Of a DNA stretch of 21,671 nt, positions 1,722-21,415 are shown one piece after another (the stretch's first letter is position 1; the number at the start of each line of letters is the position of its first letter). The translations under genes were made by a program, and so were the position numbers. The notes under the pieces were generated by a model that searched no databases, was not told the origin of the DNA, and saw only the letters and a list, made by a program, of their open reading frames with translations. Origin of the DNA: a virus. The DNA lies in the IMG/VR virus record IMGVR_UViG_3300023196_002024, positions 1-21,671 of that record; one strand, written 5' to 3'.

Positions 1722-1851
1722 AAAATATATAATAAGTACGTTTAAAGTTTTAGGTTTGTGTTTTGTCTTTTATGGTTGTTATGCATATTCTAAAGAACAG
1801 GTTAGAGTAATAGTGCAACTTCATCAATTGGAAGAAAGTTTTACAGAATGA
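1711..1851 (+). CDS. Small exported or lipoprotein-like peptide (46 aa)
   Basis: This short frame starts at ATG 1711, overlaps the end of the cupin gene by 11 bases, and ends in TGA within an ATGA overlap with the next gene. It fills the whole gap between the two, which argues that it is a real coupled gene. The 46 residues begin MQYKKYIISTF, a positively charged start, followed by a hydrophobic stretch KVLGLCFVFYGC. Cys23 lies in a weak lipobox-like context (FYGC), or the peptide could be cut by signal peptidase I after the AYS region. The mature part (KEQVRVIVQLHQLEESFTE) is short and mostly helical in character. Small phage lipoproteins include Rz1-like outer spanins and superinfection-exclusion proteins. 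The sequence does not decide between these, and it could also be a plain membrane peptide. Confidence 0.55.
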   Translation: MQYKKYIISTFKVLGLCFVFYGCYAYSKEQVRVIVQLHQLEESFTE

Positions 1852-3554
1852 GTCTAGTATTAAAAAAAAGAGACAATCCTTTACCAGGAAGTGACAAGTC
1901 ACCTTCTGATATTGGTTTAAAAATTATGGTTCTTAATGAAGCTAAGACAGCTTTTGAAGAGCAGTGGAAAGATTTATTGACTGTTAAAAAGGTTGTACTA
2001 GAAAGATTTAATAAGCAGTATGTAAGAAATAGAAATTGGTATTTTCCAGAGCCTAAGAGTATTACACAAGTTGAACAGTTTCTTCGATCAGAAATAACTA
2101 CGGATCAAGCAACTACTATTTTAGGAGATACAGTAGAAGATAAAGCCACTGATGCATTAGATCAGTTTAAAAAAAATGCATCTAGATTATTTGTTGAAGA
2201 CTTATATAAAACTAAAAGACAAGAAATTTTAAATGCTTCTGATCCACAAACTTGTGTAGACATATTAAATGATCAAGATATATTTATTAATCCTACACCT
2301 GAAAAAGAATGTGTCGAATGTTCAATTCTTTTACATACTGCTGTAGGTATAGGACAAATTAAGAATGTGTTTCATTATTTAGATATTGATTGTAGCATTA
2401 AAGTTTTAGATAAATTTACAAGTATATTTAATTTTGAAAATGAATCTTCAACAGATAAGTCAACAGATGTATTAGGTGATAAACTTATTATTGCTCGTCC
2501 AGATTTTTTAAGAGTTGGATCAGGAGAATATAAAAGCACAACACTAGATTTAATGGGAGAAGCTATTCATTGTCTTTGGACTCCAAATGATAGAACAAAT
2601 ACTTTAACAGGTAACTTAAAATTAGAAGGAAGCCCTATACCTGATGCAACAGGATTTACAAAATCTTTTTCAGAAGTAGCAGATGAAAAAGGTGTAGAGC
2701 TTTGGAATGAAGATAAAGAATTAAAAGTATATTGGAGTGGAGGAATAGATAGTACAGTAGCTCTGGTAAGTTTACTAAAAAGTAAACCTTCTGATTGGCA
2801 TGATAAATTAAAAATTGTTTATACTTCAAATTCTATTGAAGAGTATTCTTTATTTTGGAATAATTATATTAAAGATAAAATTCAAACAGAAGAAGTCTTA
2901 ATGCCAGATCGAGATGATAATAAATATTATATGGATAAACCTTTTTCTTCTCCAGTTTTAAAACATATTGCAGATAATTTAGATAAAGGTTTAACAATTA
3001 CAGGAGAATGTGGTGATCAACTTTTTGGATCATCAGGATTTATAGCTCATCCTGAAGTATTAAAAATGACAGCAGATGAGTTTATTCAAGATAAATATCC
3101 TAATAATATTGAGGATATTAAACTGTTTAATTCTAAATGCCCATATACAATCTCGTCTATTAAAGATTTATTTTGGTGGTGGAATTTTAATTTAAAATGG
3201 GAAGAAGTATCTCATCGTTCATTAGCTATGGTTAAAAATAATAATAACATAGATAATGTTCGTCATTTCTTTAGAACAGATAATTTTCAAAAATGGTCTA
3301 TACTAAATCCTGATAAAAAACTTAAAGATACATTAAAAAGCTATAAGTTTACAGCAAAAGATTATATATATGATTATACATCTGATGAAGATTATAGAGA
3401 CAACAAACTAAAAGTTGGTTCGCTTAAAGTGAGATGGGGTCATTCTTTAGGAATGGATAATAAAAATAATATTATTTACGCAGGAGATACTTCTACTAAT
3501 ACTGATCTACTTAAAGACAAGTATGGAGATTCTTTACAAAAGTTTATTAACTAA
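1848..3554 (+). CDS. Asparagine-synthetase-like (PP-loop ATP pyrophosphatase) protein without a glutaminase domain
   Basis: The 568-residue protein starts in an ATGA overlap with the small gene before it. The PP-loop that binds ATP is clear at residues 295-303 (VYWSGGIDST spans 294-303). A second signature, GECGDQLFG at 386-394, matches the SGEGADELFGG-type motif of asparagine synthetase and beta-lactam synthetase. These enzymes adenylate a carboxylate and join it to an amine. Normal AsnB carries an N-terminal Ntn glutaminase with Cys2; here residue 2 is Ser, and residues 1-285 are not recognisable as that domain. It may therefore use free ammonia or another amine, or act on a different substrate. 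The last ~170 residues are aromatic-rich and unassigned. Its place between exported small proteins and tail genes suggests modification of a surface or virion component, but that is inference. Catalytic activity is unproven. Confidence 0.75.
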   Translation: MSLVLKKRDNPLPGSDKSPSDIGLKIMVLNEAKTAFEEQWKDLLTVKKVVLERFNKQYVRNRNWYFPEPKSITQVEQFLRSEITTDQATTILGDTVEDKATDALDQFKKNASRLFVEDLYKTKRQEILNASDPQTCVDILNDQDIFINPTPEKECVECSILLHTAVGIGQIKNVFHYLDIDCSIKVLDKFTSIFNFENESSTDKSTDVLGDKLIIARPDFLRVGSGEYKSTTLDLMGEAIHCLWTPNDRTNTLTGNLKLEGSPIPDATGFTKSFSEVADEKGVELWNEDKELKVYWSGGIDSTVALVSLLKSKPSDWHDKLKIVYTSNSIEEYSLFWNNYIKDKIQTEEVLMPDRDDNKYYMDKPFSSPVLKHIADNLDKGLTITGECGDQLFGSSGFIAHPEVLKMTADEFIQDKYPNNIEDIKLFNSKCPYTISSIKDLFWWWNFNLKWEEVSHRSLAMVKNNNNIDNVRHFFRTDNFQKWSILNPDKKLKDTLKSYKFTAKDYIYDYTSDEDYRDNKLKVGSLKVRWGHSLGMDNKNNIIYAGDTSTNTDLLKDKYGDSLQKFIN

Positions 3555-4889: not shown

Positions 4890-6776
4890 ATGCCCTCTAC
4901 TAATTCTAGATTACAAAGACTGAATTTAAAGCCAGGATTTCACCGTGAGTCTACTCAGTATTCTGAGGAAGGTAAATGGTTTGATGGAGATCGAGTACGC
5001 TTTCGAGAAGGTAAGCCAGAAAATTTAAGAGGATATCAAAAATTTATTGATACTTCTTTTACTGGAACTGCTAGAGATTTACTTGCATGGACAAATAATA
5101 ATACAGAAAAACTTTTAGGCTATGGTACTGAAAGTAAATTGTATGTTGTTTATAATGATTATCCTTATGATGTAACACCAATAGTTAGTACAGTTAGTAT
5201 AGGTAACTTAGGAACTACAGGGAGTTTTGATACGGTTGCTGGCTCTCCTTTAATCGAAGTGAGTTCTAATAATAATGGAAGAAACGTCGGAGATTATGTT
5301 GAGTTTTCTAATACTTCTATTAACGGTTTTACTACAAATGGACTAGATTTTTCGGTATCTTCATTTGGTGGACCTACATTTGAAGTAGTAAGTGTTCAAG
5401 GAATAAATAACTTTTTTATTAGTGTAACTAGTGTAGCCGCTAGTACAGAATCAAATCAGGGTTCAGGCATTGCTTTCTTTCTTTTAGCTACAGGTCAATC
5501 AAATCCAATTCAAGGATTGGGATATGGTGCAGGTATATATAATGCGGGTGTTTCGGCAACAGGAGAAAGAGCTTGGAATCAACCAGCAGAATCTTCTAAC
5601 ATTATTTTCTTAGGAACACAATGGTCTTTAGATAACTTTGGTGAAGATTTACTTGCTGCTAGACAAGGAGGAAACTTAATTCATTGGGACGCTAATGCAA
5701 GTTTAGCGCCGGTTAGGTCTTCTGTTGTAGGTACTGCACCATCAAAAATTAATAGTATTGTTATATCTCCTAATGATCGTCATGTGATTGCTCTTGGAAC
5801 AGAAGAGTTTGCAACATCAGTATTTAATCCTCTTCTTGTAAGATGGTCAGATCAAGAAGATTATGCTAACTGGATTCCATCAGTATCATCTACATCAGGT
5901 GAGCTTCAACTTATTGATGGTACTAGAATTGTTGGTGGTGTACGAGGACGTAATGCAATTTTAGTTTATACAGATAATGCTCTTTACACTCTGCAATTTG
6001 TTGGTCCTCCTTTTATATTTAGAATGTCTCAAGTCGGTACAAACTGTGGCTTGATAGGATCACATGCAGCTATTGATGTAGGCGGTAGAACATACTGGAT
6101 GGGTGATACAGACTTCTTTATGTTTGATGGTTCAGTTAAAAAGTTAGATTGTACTATTCGTAGATATCTATATGACGATTTTAATATGACTCAAAAATCT
6201 AAAGTGTTTGCTGGTCTTAATTCAGAGTTCCATGAGATCATTTGGTTATATCCAAAGTCTGGGTCTAATGAACCAGATGGTTATGTAATATATAACTACA
6301 TGGAGAATACTTGGGTCTACGGTTCTAACTTCTATACAACTTTTATTGATGACTCTGTATTTCTTAACACTGTTGCTACAGGAGCAGTAACTGGAAATGT
6401 TTCGGCAACTAACCCACAGTTTATTTGGTACAATGAACCAACCTCTGTATTCTCTGGTGACAGTCAACCATTAACATCATTTATTGAAAGTGCTGATATC
6501 GATATAGGTGATGGTGATGACATTATGTTTATCGATAAGATTATCCCTGATTATGATATTAATACAGGTACAATTAAATTTTCAATTAATATAAAAGATT
6601 ATCCTGCAGGAACTACAAAAGAAGTTGGACCCTTTGATATAACAGATGCTACACAAAAAATTGATATGAGGGCAAGAGGAAGACAGGCTAACTTTAGAGT
6701 ATCAACATCTGATCTTAATACATCTTGGAAATGGGGTAGTGTTCGAGTAGCTATTCAACCAGCAGGTAAAAGGTAA
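4890..6776 (+). CDS. Tail structural protein, candidate nozzle / DNA-stabilisation protein
   Basis: The 628-residue protein begins after a six-base gap. Its N-terminus (LNLKPGFHRESTQYSEEGKW, then FDGDRVRFREGKPENLRGY) resembles the start of large tail proteins in marine podoviruses and P22 gp10-like packaged-DNA stabilisation proteins: an extended arm, then repeated Trp/Gly/Asp-rich beta blades. Motifs such as ILVYTDNALYTLQFVG, YWMGDTDFFMFDGS and ENTWVYGSNFY recur along residues 280-490, as expected of a beta-propeller like the T7 gp12 and P22 gp10 nozzles. The C-terminal ~100 residues look like a separate beta domain. Its stop (TAATG) overlaps the next start by one base. Structural tail identity is well supported; the exact equivalence to the nozzle is inferred. 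Confidence 0.65.
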   Translation: MPSTNSRLQRLNLKPGFHRESTQYSEEGKWFDGDRVRFREGKPENLRGYQKFIDTSFTGTARDLLAWTNNNTEKLLGYGTESKLYVVYNDYPYDVTPIVSTVSIGNLGTTGSFDTVAGSPLIEVSSNNNGRNVGDYVEFSNTSINGFTTNGLDFSVSSFGGPTFEVVSVQGINNFFISVTSVAASTESNQGSGIAFFLLATGQSNPIQGLGYGAGIYNAGVSATGERAWNQPAESSNIIFLGTQWSLDNFGEDLLAARQGGNLIHWDANASLAPVRSSVVGTAPSKINSIVISPNDRHVIALGTEEFATSVFNPLLVRWSDQEDYANWIPSVSSTSGELQLIDGTRIVGGVRGRNAILVYTDNALYTLQFVGPPFIFRMSQVGTNCGLIGSHAAIDVGGRTYWMGDTDFFMFDGSVKKLDCTIRRYLYDDFNMTQKSKVFAGLNSEFHEIIWLYPKSGSNEPDGYVIYNYMENTWVYGSNFYTTFIDDSVFLNTVATGAVTGNVSATNPQFIWYNEPTSVFSGDSQPLTSFIESADIDIGDGDDIMFIDKIIPDYDINTGTIKFSINIKDYPAGTTKEVGPFDITDATQKIDMRARGRQANFRVSTSDLNTSWKWGSVRVAIQPAGKR

Positions 6777-7051
6777 TGTCTTTTTCTTATCCTAACTTCT
6801 CTGTTAATTATAATATTACAGATGAAGAATTACGTCAACTATATAATGATATTAATTCATGGGCATCAGAGATAAAGTTTTTATTAGAAAGTAGAGATAT
6901 AGAGATTGAATCTTCACCATCAACTAAGATTTATTCTGTTGTTAGTGTAAATGAAATAGGAAGACCAGCAAGTGGAGATGTAGCATACTCTGCAAGTACT
7001 GGAAAGTTTAAAGGATATGTAGGTGGTACTGGTTGGGTAAATTTCAATTAA
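6776..7051 (+). CDS. Small virion-associated protein (91 aa)
   Basis: The ATG overlaps the preceding stop by one base (TAATG), which indicates translational coupling to the 628-residue tail gene. The first ~50 residues look helical (DEELRQLYNDINSWASEIKF). The last ~40 form a beta-rich segment, EIGRPASGDVAYSASTGKFK followed by GYVGGTGWVNFN. That ending pattern is common at the C-terminus of phage fibre and tail-tip proteins. No catalytic residues are evident. It may be a short fibre, a tail adaptor or a chaperone for the neighbouring fibre. It is the last gene before a promoter-bearing gap. Confidence 0.55.
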   Translation: MSFSYPNFSVNYNITDEELRQLYNDINSWASEIKFLLESRDIEIESSPSTKIYSVVSVNEIGRPASGDVAYSASTGKFKGYVGGTGWVNFN

Positions 7052-17893: not shown

Positions 17894-18301
17894 CTAGTCG
17901 AATTTACAGCGTTTAACCATATCTTCTACTTGTTCCTTTCCAAGAACCTCAAAGGTTGAAACAATAAGAGTAATCAACTCTTCCTTACTAATGTTCTTTC
18001 CATCTTCAACTTTATTACCTCTGACTCTAGACAAAAGTTCTAGAGCTTTGATGGCACTGTTCACATGTCCATTGGTTTTAGCAAAGGTATATTGATCTTC
18101 AATCTCAGCTACAACATCAACACTGGTTTTTAATTCTCTAGATAGCTCTTCTATTCTTTCTATAATAAGATCATTTTGTAATAAACGATAACCTTGATTG
18201 TAAGCTGACCTATCAGAATACCCCGCACTCTTTGCCGCATCAGTAGCGTTGTTATTCAGTACATATGACTGTGCAAACTTCTCTTGCTTTTCTGTTAGCA
18301 T
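17894..18301 (-). CDS. terS: Terminase small subunit
   Basis: The 135-residue protein opens LTEKQEKFAQSYVLNNNATD and continues AAKSAGYSDRSAYNQGYRLL, the typical helix-turn-helix start of the Terminase_2 family. Members of that family recognise the packaging site and recruit the large terminase. The C-terminal part (about 60-135) is helical and would form the oligomeric ring and the contact with the large subunit. The length fits the family. Its start overlaps the stop of the upstream fused enzyme gene by one base, and it is the last gene of the - strand unit. No large terminase gene is present in this window. A GAGG site lies rather far upstream, so coupling to the preceding gene is likely. 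Confidence 0.85.
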   Translation of the reverse strand: MLTEKQEKFAQSYVLNNNATDAAKSAGYSDRSAYNQGYRLLQNDLIIERIEELSRELKTSVDVVAEIEDQYTFAKTNGHVNSAIKALELLSRVRGNKVEDGKNISKEELITLIVSTFEVLGKEQVEDMVKRCKFD

Positions 18302-20625
18302 TATAAAGAGAGAACCTCTTTGTATGTGCGTAACTTATGAGTATCAGATATTTCCCAGAGCTTAGAAACAAGTGTACCAGTTCCATGAAAGTTTATACTA
18401 AGGTTTACATCTTCCTTCTCGAATAACTTCTCGCAGTCTTGTGCCATTGCTAGGAGTTCTCCAGTAGTCCAGAAGCTCTCATTCCCTACACCTACCTTTA
18501 GATACTTTGGCTTACCCTCATCTGTTGTTTCTTTCTGTTCTTTTTTAGAAGGTTCAGGAAAGGAACAGTCATATCCAAAGAGATGGAACTCTCTAAAGCC
18601 TAGAGTATGCATGATACCAATTGATCGCATGGCTGCACAAGTACCGCCAATAATCATCGTAGCTCCTTCTTTGATACCTAACTTCTCGTCAATCTTTACG
18701 GCATCGTTCTTAACTTGATCTTTAATATTTTCTTGTAATGCGTTGGTATATGCATGCCACCCTACAATGTTTTTTGTTTTCTTTCGCAGTAAGTCTATAA
18801 CAGAAGGATCAGTCATAGATGCTGCCATAAATAAAGTACTGTCATCAATCTTCTTAAACAAATCTTTTCGGACAACTCCATGCGTACTTGTTCCTGTAAC
18901 TGGACGAGGGTCTAGAATGACACAACCAAAAGGTTGAATATCATTTTTTAATAACTCTGGATAAGAGTGCTTAACACAAATAACTTTAGCTCTTTTCTTT
19001 CCGACCTTTTTAATTGTACGCTTTACCTCTTGCCAATTAGTGCTGCTTCCACCAGAAATAATAATAGCAACTTCTGAATGAGGCTTTGCTTTTGTAACCC
19101 ATGTATCAATAACAGAAGTATTTTTTTTAACATTGTTAAGAATGTCTTCTTTAGGCATACAATCTCTAGGCTGTACAATAATAGGTGATCGTCCAAGAGT
19201 TTCTGGAATATCTTCAAGGCTATCATCCGTTAGAACTACAGCTAAGTGAGTGATACCTCCTTCGATAATTCGATCAGCAGATGGTAACACTTTCTTTCGG
19301 TGATCAATCTTTTCAATAAGTTTATTAACACCATAAAATTCTTCACCTGGATCATTTCCTTTTTCATCTTTAGAAATATAATCATCGAAGACAACAACCT
19401 TACTTTCTTTTAACATCTCATAATCATGGGTTACAGTTTCTTCAGAGTGACCCCCATCGATGTAAGCAAAGTCAACTTTCTTTTCTTGAAGTGTATCTTT
19501 TGTATCTCCCTTAAACAATTCGAAGTTAAACTTACGACCAGCATTTTTACAGTTTTCTTGATACTCTGTAAGTCTTGCATTTACTGCAGCGAAAAAATTA
19601 TGTTGTTTGCTGTTCAGTTCTTTCTCATCTATCTCTGTAGTAGCATCCTCAAATAGATCATAACCATAGTAAGTTACTTCATGTGAAGATTTAAACGCAG
19701 CCTCTGACATTTGAATAGCTCGACCACCGTTCCATGTACCTGTTTCAGCAATAGTACTAGGTTGGTAAAGCTCTACTAGTTCAATTAACTTAGCATATCT
19801 CTGAGGTCCATTAACATCTGGGGCTACGCCTTGAGTAGCAGCTTTCTTTCTACTACCTTTAAAATGTTTTACATGATTACTAAGAGGAAATAAATCAAAG
19901 GCTTGCTCACCTTTTACTTGTGACTTTATATCTTTTGATCCGGTCCAATCATGAAACTTTAAGCCATGAGCTTTGTAAATAATTAGAAGACGTTCAAACA
20001 AAAACCCGTCATGCCATTCTCTATAATTAAAAACTTCTCCTGTTAGATAAGCGCCAATAAAGTCACCAATAAATTCTAGAGTTGTGTCGCTATTTAAATT
20101 AAAACCAATAAAAGAAGTTTCACTATAGGTAAAATGTTTTCTTCCTAGATGTACTAGATTAACTTTCTCTGGTAAGGATTTAAGAAGGGCTTTCTTTGAT
20201 AGAGCTTTTTCTGTAACCGTATCAGCATCCATCCATACTAACCAGCCAGGATTATGATCACCCTCTGCCTCCTCACTATCGCTCTTCAAATTAAACGCAC
20301 AGTCAGCAATAGCAAATACTTTATGACTAAACTTAATACCATCCATACGCCAGTTATAACCCTGACTATCTTTACCTGTACCATTAAAATCTTTGTAGGT
20401 ATTTCTGAATTGGTGTAGTTCTTCTAGATCATTTAAATTTCTAAACTCAATGTGGTCACACTCTGGTATGTCTTTAGAATTAATATCAAAGTCATGGTAG
20501 TAAGCAACAAGCTTGATGGACGGTTCCCAATATTTTGCAGCAGACTTAATCATTCTCTCGGCATAGGTTTCCCAGCCATCCTCCGAAAAGGATGTTACCA
20601 CCGTCACTTTATTTTTGTTACTCAT
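18301..20625 (-). CDS. Three-module fusion: glycosyltransferase-like, SAM methyltransferase, Maf/DUF115-like
   Basis: The 774-residue protein has three regions. Residues ~1-265 look like a nucleotide-sugar glycosyltransferase, with WLVWMDADT (128-136) giving a DxD metal site. Residues ~275-440 are a class I methyltransferase of the Methyltransf_24 type: IAETGTWNGGRAIQMSE (292-308) is the SAM-binding loop and FAYIDGGHSEE (386-396) the conserved second motif. Residues ~515-690 resemble the DUF115 family (Maf flagellin glycosyltransferases and MptE-like proteins): VAIIISGGSST (519-529), CVILDPRP (568-575) and GGTCAAMRSIGIMHTLGF then FHLFGYDCSF (660-689). The probable role is building or altering a glycan on phage or host. 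The start overlaps the upstream gene by eight bases. Activity of each module is inferred. Confidence 0.7.
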   Translation of the reverse strand: MSNKNKVTVVTSFSEDGWETYAERMIKSAAKYWEPSIKLVAYYHDFDINSKDIPECDHIEFRNLNDLEELHQFRNTYKDFNGTGKDSQGYNWRMDGIKFSHKVFAIADCAFNLKSDSEEAEGDHNPGWLVWMDADTVTEKALSKKALLKSLPEKVNLVHLGRKHFTYSETSFIGFNLNSDTTLEFIGDFIGAYLTGEVFNYREWHDGFLFERLLIIYKAHGLKFHDWTGSKDIKSQVKGEQAFDLFPLSNHVKHFKGSRKKAATQGVAPDVNGPQRYAKLIELVELYQPSTIAETGTWNGGRAIQMSEAAFKSSHEVTYYGYDLFEDATTEIDEKELNSKQHNFFAAVNARLTEYQENCKNAGRKFNFELFKGDTKDTLQEKKVDFAYIDGGHSEETVTHDYEMLKESKVVVFDDYISKDEKGNDPGEEFYGVNKLIEKIDHRKKVLPSADRIIEGGITHLAVVLTDDSLEDIPETLGRSPIIVQPRDCMPKEDILNNVKKNTSVIDTWVTKAKPHSEVAIIISGGSSTNWQEVKRTIKKVGKKRAKVICVKHSYPELLKNDIQPFGCVILDPRPVTGTSTHGVVRKDLFKKIDDSTLFMAASMTDPSVIDLLRKKTKNIVGWHAYTNALQENIKDQVKNDAVKIDEKLGIKEGATMIIGGTCAAMRSIGIMHTLGFREFHLFGYDCSFPEPSKKEQKETTDEGKPKYLKVGVGNESFWTTGELLAMAQDCEKLFEKEDVNLSINFHGTGTLVSKLWEISDTHKLRTYKEVLSL

Positions 20626-21415
20626 AAGTTTTATTCCACTTCATTGTTTTTGTTTTTCCTAGCACCTCTTCTATTGTAAGAGCATCTCTAAAGTTAGTCC
20701 ACTCTAATGCATACTTAGCATCGATTGATCTCTTAGGTTTCCACTTAGGAAACCAAGGTCCACCAGTAGTGAAGTGTACGTTCTTTGCTTCTATCTCTTC
20801 TGGCGAATGACCATCTAACCAGTTCCACTCTTCAGGAATATCTCCAATTAGATCATCCGATAACCACTGAAAGTTATGTAAATAATAACCTGACTTTAAA
20901 TTAACATCGTCAATTGTTAAATCTTTATGGGCTTCATGCTCACAATTCCATAGCACAAAGCTAGACCAATTCTTTCTATTGTATCTAGTCTGAACTTGAT
21001 TATCCATTTTATAATCATCTGATGGATTGTAGTTATGCTTGACACACCAGACGGCTTTGTCCTCTCTAGAAGCATACTTAAAGACTTCCATTATGTCAGT
21101 CCGTACCATCATATCACAATCCATAAAGAGAGCAAGTCCTTTTAGATTATTAACAAATGGAATTAAAAATCTTGTGAAAGAGAACTCAGTTGAAAAAGGT
21201 TTATTATCTTGCCAATCAATTTTAACCGAACCGTTATCATTGCTTTGAATTTGAAATGATCTACGATATAAATTAATACGCCGTAATGTTTCTTGATCTA
21301 AAGGAACTACTCTAACAGGTTGAGAAGAAGTATCAATAATTGATTCTTTTAAAATTTCAAAAGCATCATCTTCTTTTTTATCGTAGCCAATATAAACTGT
21401 TGGAATATCATTCAT
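20618..21415 (-). CDS. GT8-like glycosyltransferase
   Basis: The 265-residue protein begins PTVYIGYDKKEDDAFEILKE, the nucleotide-sugar-binding start of GT-A enzymes that resemble GT8. STEFSFTRFLIP (75-86) and ALFMDCDMMVRTDI (95-108), with the DCD metal site at 99-101, are characteristic. Further matches include a GYYLHNFQWL segment and HFTTGGPW near residues 215-225, where the family has a late acceptor-binding HxxxxGPW/KPW motif. Such enzymes use a divalent metal and a UDP- or similar sugar donor. The gene starts in an ATGA overlap with the 49-residue gene and overlaps the fused enzyme gene by eight bases, so the three are co-translated. The target glycan cannot be read from sequence. Confidence 0.75.
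   Translation of the reverse strand: MNDIPTVYIGYDKKEDDAFEILKESIIDTSSQPVRVVPLDQETLRRINLYRRSFQIQSNDNGSVKIDWQDNKPFSTEFSFTRFLIPFVNNLKGLALFMDCDMMVRTDIMEVFKYASREDKAVWCVKHNYNPSDDYKMDNQVQTRYNRKNWSSFVLWNCEHEAHKDLTIDDVNLKSGYYLHNFQWLSDDLIGDIPEEWNWLDGHSPEEIEAKNVHFTTGGPWFPKWKPKRSIDAKYALEWTNFRDALTIEEVLGKTKTMKWNKTYE

Follow-up and report, generated by a model that had tools for sequence, protein, structure and literature searches.

A phage protein joining a glycosyltransferase-type fold, a methyltransferase and a DUF115 module, encoded beside a GT8-type partner in uncultured tailed phages, as a candidate builder of methylated glycans

Glycosyltransferases of the Maf type belong to the DUF115 family, an older name of PF01973 (Maf_flag10); the same Pfam family is also named for an archaeal pterin pyrophosphokinase, MptE (6-hydroxymethylpterin diphosphokinase). 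In Maf proteins the core is preceded by a Rossmann-type domain with a weak resemblance to methyltransferase motifs, according to PMC11339370. A viral enzyme that both builds and methylates a glycan has been described in A064R of the algal virus PBCV-1, a chain of 638 residues with glycosyltransferase, glycosyltransferase and methyltransferase domains that makes and methylates the tip of the capsid glycan; PMC9614988 describes early expression of the gene and a division of labour in which domains 1 and 2 attach two rhamnose residues, the last of which receives a methyl group from domain 3; a second virus gene completes the glycan. In this study, we analysed a phage gene with likenesses to these systems that lies in a stretch of 21,671 nucleotides of viral DNA (IMG/VR record IMGVR_UViG_3300023196_002024, positions 1 to 21,671; hereafter the window), in which a first-pass annotation had read glycosyltransferase, methyltransferase and Maf/DUF115-like modules in a single 774-residue protein. 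We give close to an even chance to the reading that this protein is a soluble trifunctional glycan-building enzyme which, together with a GT8-type glycosyltransferase encoded beside it, produces an O-methylated oligosaccharide whose carrier would most likely be a virion protein.

The fusion gene is a single uninterrupted open reading frame of 774 codons that starts with ATG and runs on the minus strand from 20625 to 18301 (18301..20625), at the coordinates given by the first-pass annotation, the plus-strand translation being full of stops. The one chain contains all three modules, which agree in kind and roughly in extent with that annotation; two were identified by Pfam above its cut-offs and the first by fold only (GT-A, Z 13.9). 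Domain searches failed for the first module alone, whereas failure for two of the three had been named as the outcome that would count against the annotation. Module 1 (residues ~1-262; 19840..20625, minus strand, as are the features that follow) is a GT-A fold glycosyltransferase module with a DAD (DxD) motif at residues 133-135 (20221..20229). Module 2 (residues ~263-478; 19192..19839) is a class I S-adenosylmethionine-dependent methyltransferase matched by PF13578 (Methyltransf_24) at residues 294-416 (E 5.1e-10, 40.6 bits vs a cut-off of 26.3), and module 3 (residues ~479-774; 18304..19191), of the DUF115/Maf_flag10/MptE-like kind, is matched by PF01973 at residues 495-691 (E 6.7e-13, 49.2 bits vs 34.6). 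Both Pfam families were matched at E up to 0.01 by all 28 members of alignment A1, which comprises the window protein and 27 relatives. PF05711 (TylF/MycF) scored module 2 at 20 bits, under its cut-off of 23, and was matched by 10 of the 28 members at E up to 0.01. A sequence search of solved structures with the whole fusion protein gave no match at E up to 1; the A1 profile matched three O-methyltransferases (best E 0.034), and the five ribosomal proteins matched by the module 3 profile (best E 0.6) were taken as chance.

An AlphaFold2 model of the fusion, built with 28 aligned sequences, had a mean predicted local distance difference test score (pLDDT) of 82.7 and a predicted template modelling score (pTM) of 0.43. 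In this model, module 1 (residues 5-258) matched two structures equally well, 4ayl (Z 13.9, root-mean-square deviation (rmsd) 3.7, 190 aligned) and 2p6w, a glycosyltransferase of PBCV-1 major capsid glycosylation (Z 13.9, rmsd 3.2, 179 aligned), and the best Foldseek match was 5nr9_B (E 5.5e-9). Judging also by its sister entries, 4ayl is a GT6 enzyme, and 2p6w is domain 1 of A064R. The modelled module 1 has a GT-A fold with a DxD motif, and the tied matches are compatible with more than one family within GT-A. For module 2 (residues 266-469) the best match was TrmR 8k1f (Z 15.5, rmsd 2.9, 159 aligned), with sugar and small-molecule O-methyltransferases slightly below it at Z 14.0-14.5, among them the sugar O-methyltransferase MycF 4xvz (Z 14.5, rmsd 2.7, 158 aligned). 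Module 3 (residues 485-748) matched 8sd5, the M. jannaschii pterin pyrophosphokinase (HPPK), at Z 14.8 (rmsd 3.3, 196 aligned).

The fusion is conserved as one chain in a large number of uncultured phages. A scan of IMG/VR with the fusion protein found 471 related stretches, the best 80 of which represent 79 loci and form the basis of our locus counts; a second scan, with an alignment, found at least 549 related stretches, and three further loci from it (L145, L149 and L150) were added to the 79. The gene was full length in 75 of the 79 loci, the other four running into the end of the locus, and the full-length relatives were 50-98% identical to the window fusion. These loci are partly non-independent: they reduce to 27 representatives that share less than 90% identity, whose pairwise identity averages 58% and goes down to 47%. 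Nine residues (D133, A134, D135, D390, D572, G660, G661, T662 and D686) were identical in all 75 full-length relatives; D414 and D415 were each kept in 72 (N in three), G525 in 72 (A in three) and S528 in 60. Between the window and locus L003, nonsynonymous divergence (dN, NG86 method) was 0.21, 0.15 and 0.12 for modules 1, 2 and 3 and synonymous divergence (dS) was 2.1, saturated and 2.3, in this one pair. Mean column identity was 67% for module 3 (alignment A4) vs 60% for module 1 (alignment A3, which includes one distant row). Given the full-length genes, the 27 representatives below 90% identity and the low dN, it is hardly conceivable that the fusion is an assembly artefact or a decaying gene, even though a second copy with an in-frame TAA is present in record G001. 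This record, the source of locus L001, carries two copies, at 44341-46650 and 99460-101739 (the latter with the TAA); at 106,894 bases it is about twice as long as its relatives, so that assembly may have joined two genomes in it.

A gene for a 265-residue GT8-type glycosyltransferase (20618..21415, minus strand) immediately precedes the fusion, with an 8-base overlap. Its ortholog occupies this place, on the same strand, in 71 of the 75 loci; in three of the remaining four none is present in the stretch and in one another frame stands there. Across loci the two genes overlap by 1 to 58 bases, with starts picked mechanically. The AlphaFold2 model of the partner (pLDDT 87.8, pTM 0.87) matched the GT8 protein 3tzt (Z 16.2, rmsd 2.6, 191 aligned), and its profile matched the GT8 chain 5gvv_A at E 0.0009. 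PF01501 was matched at E up to 1 by 18 of the 30 members of alignment A2 (best E 1.5e-6), the partner from the window being one of the other 12, and the DxD residues D99 and D101 were invariant in the partner alignment. Comparison of module 1 with the GT8 partner by hhalign gave a probability of 0.45%, with no sign of a recent duplication. On the other side, directly downstream with a 1-base overlap, is the terminase small subunit gene TerS (17894..18301, minus strand; PF03592, E 2.8e-17), a homologue of which was present in 72 of the 75 loci; in 27 neighbourhoods that were laid out gene by gene, it followed the fusion on the downstream side in 26; among the further loci, L145 and L150 keep TerS and L149 had no TerS match. 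A cluster containing ribonucleotide reductase was present in 67 of the 75 loci. In a 54,422-base record whose fusion is 98% identical to that of the window, a T7-type primase-helicase, polymerase A, ribonucleotide reductase, ThyX and the GT8-fusion pair lie on one strand, and the large terminase and capsid genes lie on the opposite strand with the virion-type genes of the window.

The relatives of module 3 outside these loci were sought with PF01973 in 289 genomes of one class, of which 37 matched; 30 loci were fetched, and in 21 of them a frame matched the module 3 profile (E up to 1). Leaving aside the phage-type contig of a Sneathiella metagenome-assembled genome (MAG; L155), the best relatives were three stand-alone genes of 248-277 residues in genomes of the alphaproteobacterial class, L176/L185, L182/L186 and L181/L187 (E 2.6e-17, 3e-13 and 3.7e-6, respectively), which encode single-module proteins, unlike the fusion. 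The first is surrounded by genes for a terminase, a lectin-like virion protein, two sulfotransferases and a head-tail connector (L185), the second stands beside a portal and a tail protein gene (L186), and the third adjoins an unidentified frame (L187). Positions 4650-13081 of L185 have the appearance of a prophage-like virion cluster. In a tree of 33 rows, from which the nine fetched loci without a scored match were left out and in which long branches mean that joins may be false, the three stand-alone genes and the fusions formed one group (99/98) that was separate from the long PF01973 proteins of the Maf type, and four other stand-alone DUF115 genes (L177, L178, L183 and L184) fell on the Maf side. 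INPHARED gave no match at E up to 1e-3 for two of the stand-alone genes and none at E up to 1 for module 3, so that these searches did not place the wider phage DUF115 family in named phages.

This placement bears on the earlier suggestion that the DUF115 module acts as a Maf protein transferring nonulosonic acids, which our results do not support. The fusion shares with Magnetospirillum Maf (5mu5) a PF01973 core above the Pfam cut-off and may share a Rossmann-type domain before it, and residues 262-763 could be paired with residues 36-502 of 5mu5 (Z 19.1), at an rmsd of 14.6 that corresponds to no single rigid superposition (VIA-align). It differs from Maf in having a complete Methyltransf_24 domain before the core and an extra N-terminal GT-A module, in the clade of its DUF115 module, and in leaving no room for the Maf C-terminal helical domain: the chain ends at residue 774, and past the strand at 743-747 the model has just helices of 4-7 residues. 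Resemblance to PseD at residues 508-624 was far below the NCBIfam cut-off (36.9 vs 670 bits), and PF02348, the CMP-sugar-synthetase type, had no match in any of the eight long relatives (its control was found in 11 of 14). The specific claim of a phage-borne Maf that decorates flagellin with nonulosonic acid was rejected on the strength of the tree, the missing helical domain and the absence of PF02348 matches; nonulosonic acid as the sugar itself is possible, with a donor that could come from the host.

Under the reading we prefer, the GT8 enzyme and module 1 would lay down the inner sugars in the cytoplasm of the infected cell, both being probably metal-dependent users of nucleotide sugars since both have GT-A folds with DxD motifs. 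The DUF115 module would add another sugar, taken from a nucleotide donor that the host makes, the methyltransferase module would methylate a sugar hydroxyl as the end cap, and the short methylated chain would end up on a virion protein of a lytic phage. The virion is proposed as the target because the protein appears soluble (no hydrophobic stretch reaches membrane-span strength, the top 19-residue mean being 1.23), because the tyrosine integrase family PF00589 was absent from the eight long relatives, because two of the three nearest DUF115 genes have virion genes as neighbours, and because of the A064R precedent. The idea that one enzyme builds and caps a glycan thus survives as the best reading, with its Maf and nonulosonic acid step removed. 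As in A064R (PMC9614988), one viral chain holds three transferase-type modules, and a second virus gene would take part; moreover, the structure of domain 1 of A064R, 2p6w, is matched by module 1. A064R differs in its domain order (glycosyltransferase, glycosyltransferase, methyltransferase vs glycosyltransferase, methyltransferase, DUF115), in belonging to an algal virus and in having assayed activities, those of the phage enzyme being read from sequence and models. The likeness of two glycosyltransferases plus a methyltransferase holds only if module 3 is a glycosyltransferase, as its family would suggest.

Several observations weigh against this reading. The fusion gene lies outside the virion gene block, at the end of the replication-strand block after ribonucleotide reductase, where DNA-modification genes may also lie; the early expression of A064R partly answers this objection. 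The prophage relatives of module 3 are in temperate-type elements and do not share the supposed life style. Module 1 is without a sequence match in Pfam or the PDB: residues 1-265 of the window protein had none in Pfam, GT6 (PF03414) matched neither the window protein at E up to 1 nor, at E up to 0.01, any of the 28 sequences in A1, and the module 1 profile matched no solved structure at E up to 10. The position of the GT6 nucleophile (WHDE) would read G207 in module 1. Searches for PF03414 and PF05637 (GT34) in 385 and 289 genomes, respectively, gave no match, with silent controls that make them uninformative. The top fold match of the modelled module 2, TrmR, acts on tRNA, and residues 289-391 weakly resemble the NCBIfam model of the tRNA methyltransferase MnmC2 (18.6 vs 136 bits). 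The DUF115 motif reads SGGxST in module 3 and GxGPS in relatives. Finally, the modules are well predicted and their mutual placing is uncertain, as the pTM of the fusion model indicates, and fold matches by themselves demonstrate no activity.

These points give room to other explanations, the first of which retains glycan building and changes the target. That the enzyme pair rebuilds a host surface polysaccharide or flagellin, thereby blocking superinfection or stopping progeny from sticking to debris, is possible though on balance doubtful. Lipopolysaccharide and capsule are common targets of GT8 and GT6-type enzymes and of O-methyltransferases for sugars, PF01973 includes flagellin glycosyltransferases, and the genes sit in the replication-strand block; these considerations are countered by the lack of a membrane-span-like stretch, by the absence of PF00589 from all eight long relatives and by the grouping of the DUF115 module apart from Maf-type proteins. 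Phage DNA had also been named as a potential target. The ThyA family is the family of known base hydroxymethylases, and no ThyA-family match was found in any of the eight long relatives (control found in 9 of 14), which makes it quite unlikely that the pair modifies DNA (or RNA) by placing sugars on a hydroxylated base that are then methylated, protecting the genome from restriction. This would accord with the adjoining ribonucleotide reductase, with ThyX in the same genome, with a weak match of module 2 to a PHROG named 'DNA methyltransferase' (E 7.2e-7) and with the tRNA methyltransferase as its best fold, yet the sugar and small-molecule O-methyltransferases match that module at scores little below TrmR. 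A search for Tet/JBP enzymes found none, with a silent control, and is hence uninformative.

A different kind of explanation concerns module 3, which might be an MptE-like pyrophosphokinase or an inactive nucleotide-binding scaffold, leaving an enzyme with only glycosyltransferase and methyltransferase functions. We consider this unlikely. Module 3 shares with archaeal MptE both the PF01973 domain and the fold, as the match to 8sd5 shows, and it has SGGxST in place of GxGPS; nevertheless, dN in the pair compared was lower for module 3 than for the other two modules, its column identity exceeds that of module 1, and one of its three nearest relatives adjoins sulfotransferases.

The architecture itself is probably undescribed. 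No description of it was found in the literature searched on DUF115, MptE-like proteins, Maf_flag10/PF01973 and the motility accessory factor in combination with phage, which was searched partly by titles and abstracts, and literature on Maf, phage-encoded glycosyltransferases and Mosig yielded no such phage enzyme among the matches listed. The first-pass annotation had allowed that the same fusion might prove widespread with a known function; it is indeed widespread in uncultured phages, as the two scans show, and no known function came with it. A full-length relative is even present in UniProt, A0A6J7X5Q0 of an uncultured Caudovirales phage (714 residues, 30% identity over 775 alignment columns with the fusion model, E 7.2e-61), under the name 'Methyltransferase domain containing protein', which refers to one module. 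We propose tentatively, and with rather less than even confidence, that some phage DUF115 modules form a separate, unrecognised family of phage glycosyltransferases which, when joined in one chain with GT-A and O-methyltransferase modules and paired with a GT8 enzyme, constitute a two-gene pathway that puts an O-methylated oligosaccharide on the virions of widespread uncultured tailed phages. If so, the DUF115 fusion and its GT8 partner would be a bacterial-virus counterpart of the giant-virus pathways for capsid glycans, and a large uncultured group related to pelagiphages would carry a methylated-glycan route as a near-constant gene pair. Three enzyme modules in one expressible and assayable protein would also provide a defined enzyme for virion glycosylation in bacterial viruses, and phage genes named 'MptE-like' or 'methyltransferase' after single modules would find an explanation.

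Some of the modules live apart in other phages. In Pelagibacter phage Mosig (EXVC030M, genes 00188-00191), a GT8 homologue (E 3.3e-67) adjoins a free-standing homologue of module 1 (profile E 5.9e-30; by tblastn only E 7e-4), and the same gene run has two genes annotated as methyltransferases and one as sulfotransfer. The two glycosyltransferase homologues and the adjoining methyltransferase-annotated genes resemble our pair; unlike in the fusion, they are separate genes, and a search of a 17-kb stretch with the module 2 and module 3 profiles gave nothing at E up to 0.01. The Manatee Spring record MW202713 (L083) likewise encodes a homologue of module 1 as a gene of its own, close to the large terminase and to a methyltransferase gene; it is reported here by tblastn (E 7e-10, 26.3%), as the L083 stretch is a row of the module 1 profile, which Mosig is not. 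A 547-residue phage protein in BFVD, A0A6J5P9A3, matches the GT8 partner (35% over 258 columns) at twice its length and matches the fusion model as well; it is perhaps a GT8 enzyme fused to a further glycosyltransferase.

By single proteins, the closest isolates are pelagiphages, with 46.5% identity of the DNA polymerase to HTVC104P and 39.5% of the large terminase to HTVC023P; the stretches of HTVC104P, HTVC023P and DSL-LC04 that were analysed had no match to the four module profiles. Among 50,697 INPHARED records, two matched the fusion at E up to 1e-3, in each case with a match confined to module 1, and no record matched more than 80% of it, in a search from which records very near the window may be left out. 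The supposed lytic life style would be consistent with the tyrosine integrase result: PF00589 was found in none of the eight long relatives, two of them near-twins of the window, with a control found in 14 of 14, other integrases not being sought. A single cell-genome match (one of 37 candidate stretches) has a phage-type gene order, in a Sneathiella MAG contig; there, contig PAKP01000072.1 of the MAG bin (L081) has replication genes, GT8, fusion and TerS in the phage order. It is probably a phage contig in the bin and gives a weak hint of an alphaproteobacterial host; PF01973 was not matched in the other 24 genomes of this MAG's order.

Further observations concern the surroundings of the pair and of the window. 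L045, L050, L060, L076, L145 and L150 carry a gene for a 2-oxoglutarate (2OG)-Fe(II) oxygenase no more than ~1.6 kb upstream of the fusion, and the homologue in G002 is elsewhere; PF13640 was matched in two of the eight long records. Hydroxylation by such an oxygenase followed by glycosylation by the pair was rejected as a fixed part of the pathway, a homologue being present in only four of the 75 loci, within the stretches analysed, and two of the three further loci. In L149, frames at 6184-6884 (minus strand) that resemble iron-sulphur scaffold and carrier proteins, as judged by eye from the translation, adjoin the phage gene cluster. Within the window, a 568-residue frame at 1848-3554 (plus strand) with an SGGIDS motif is weakly asparagine synthase-like (E 0.26) and QueC-like (E 0.019); it adjoins a cupin-type gene (1137-1721) and glycine-rich frames (378-1136), and is an odd ATP-pyrophosphatase-type gene near the tail genes.

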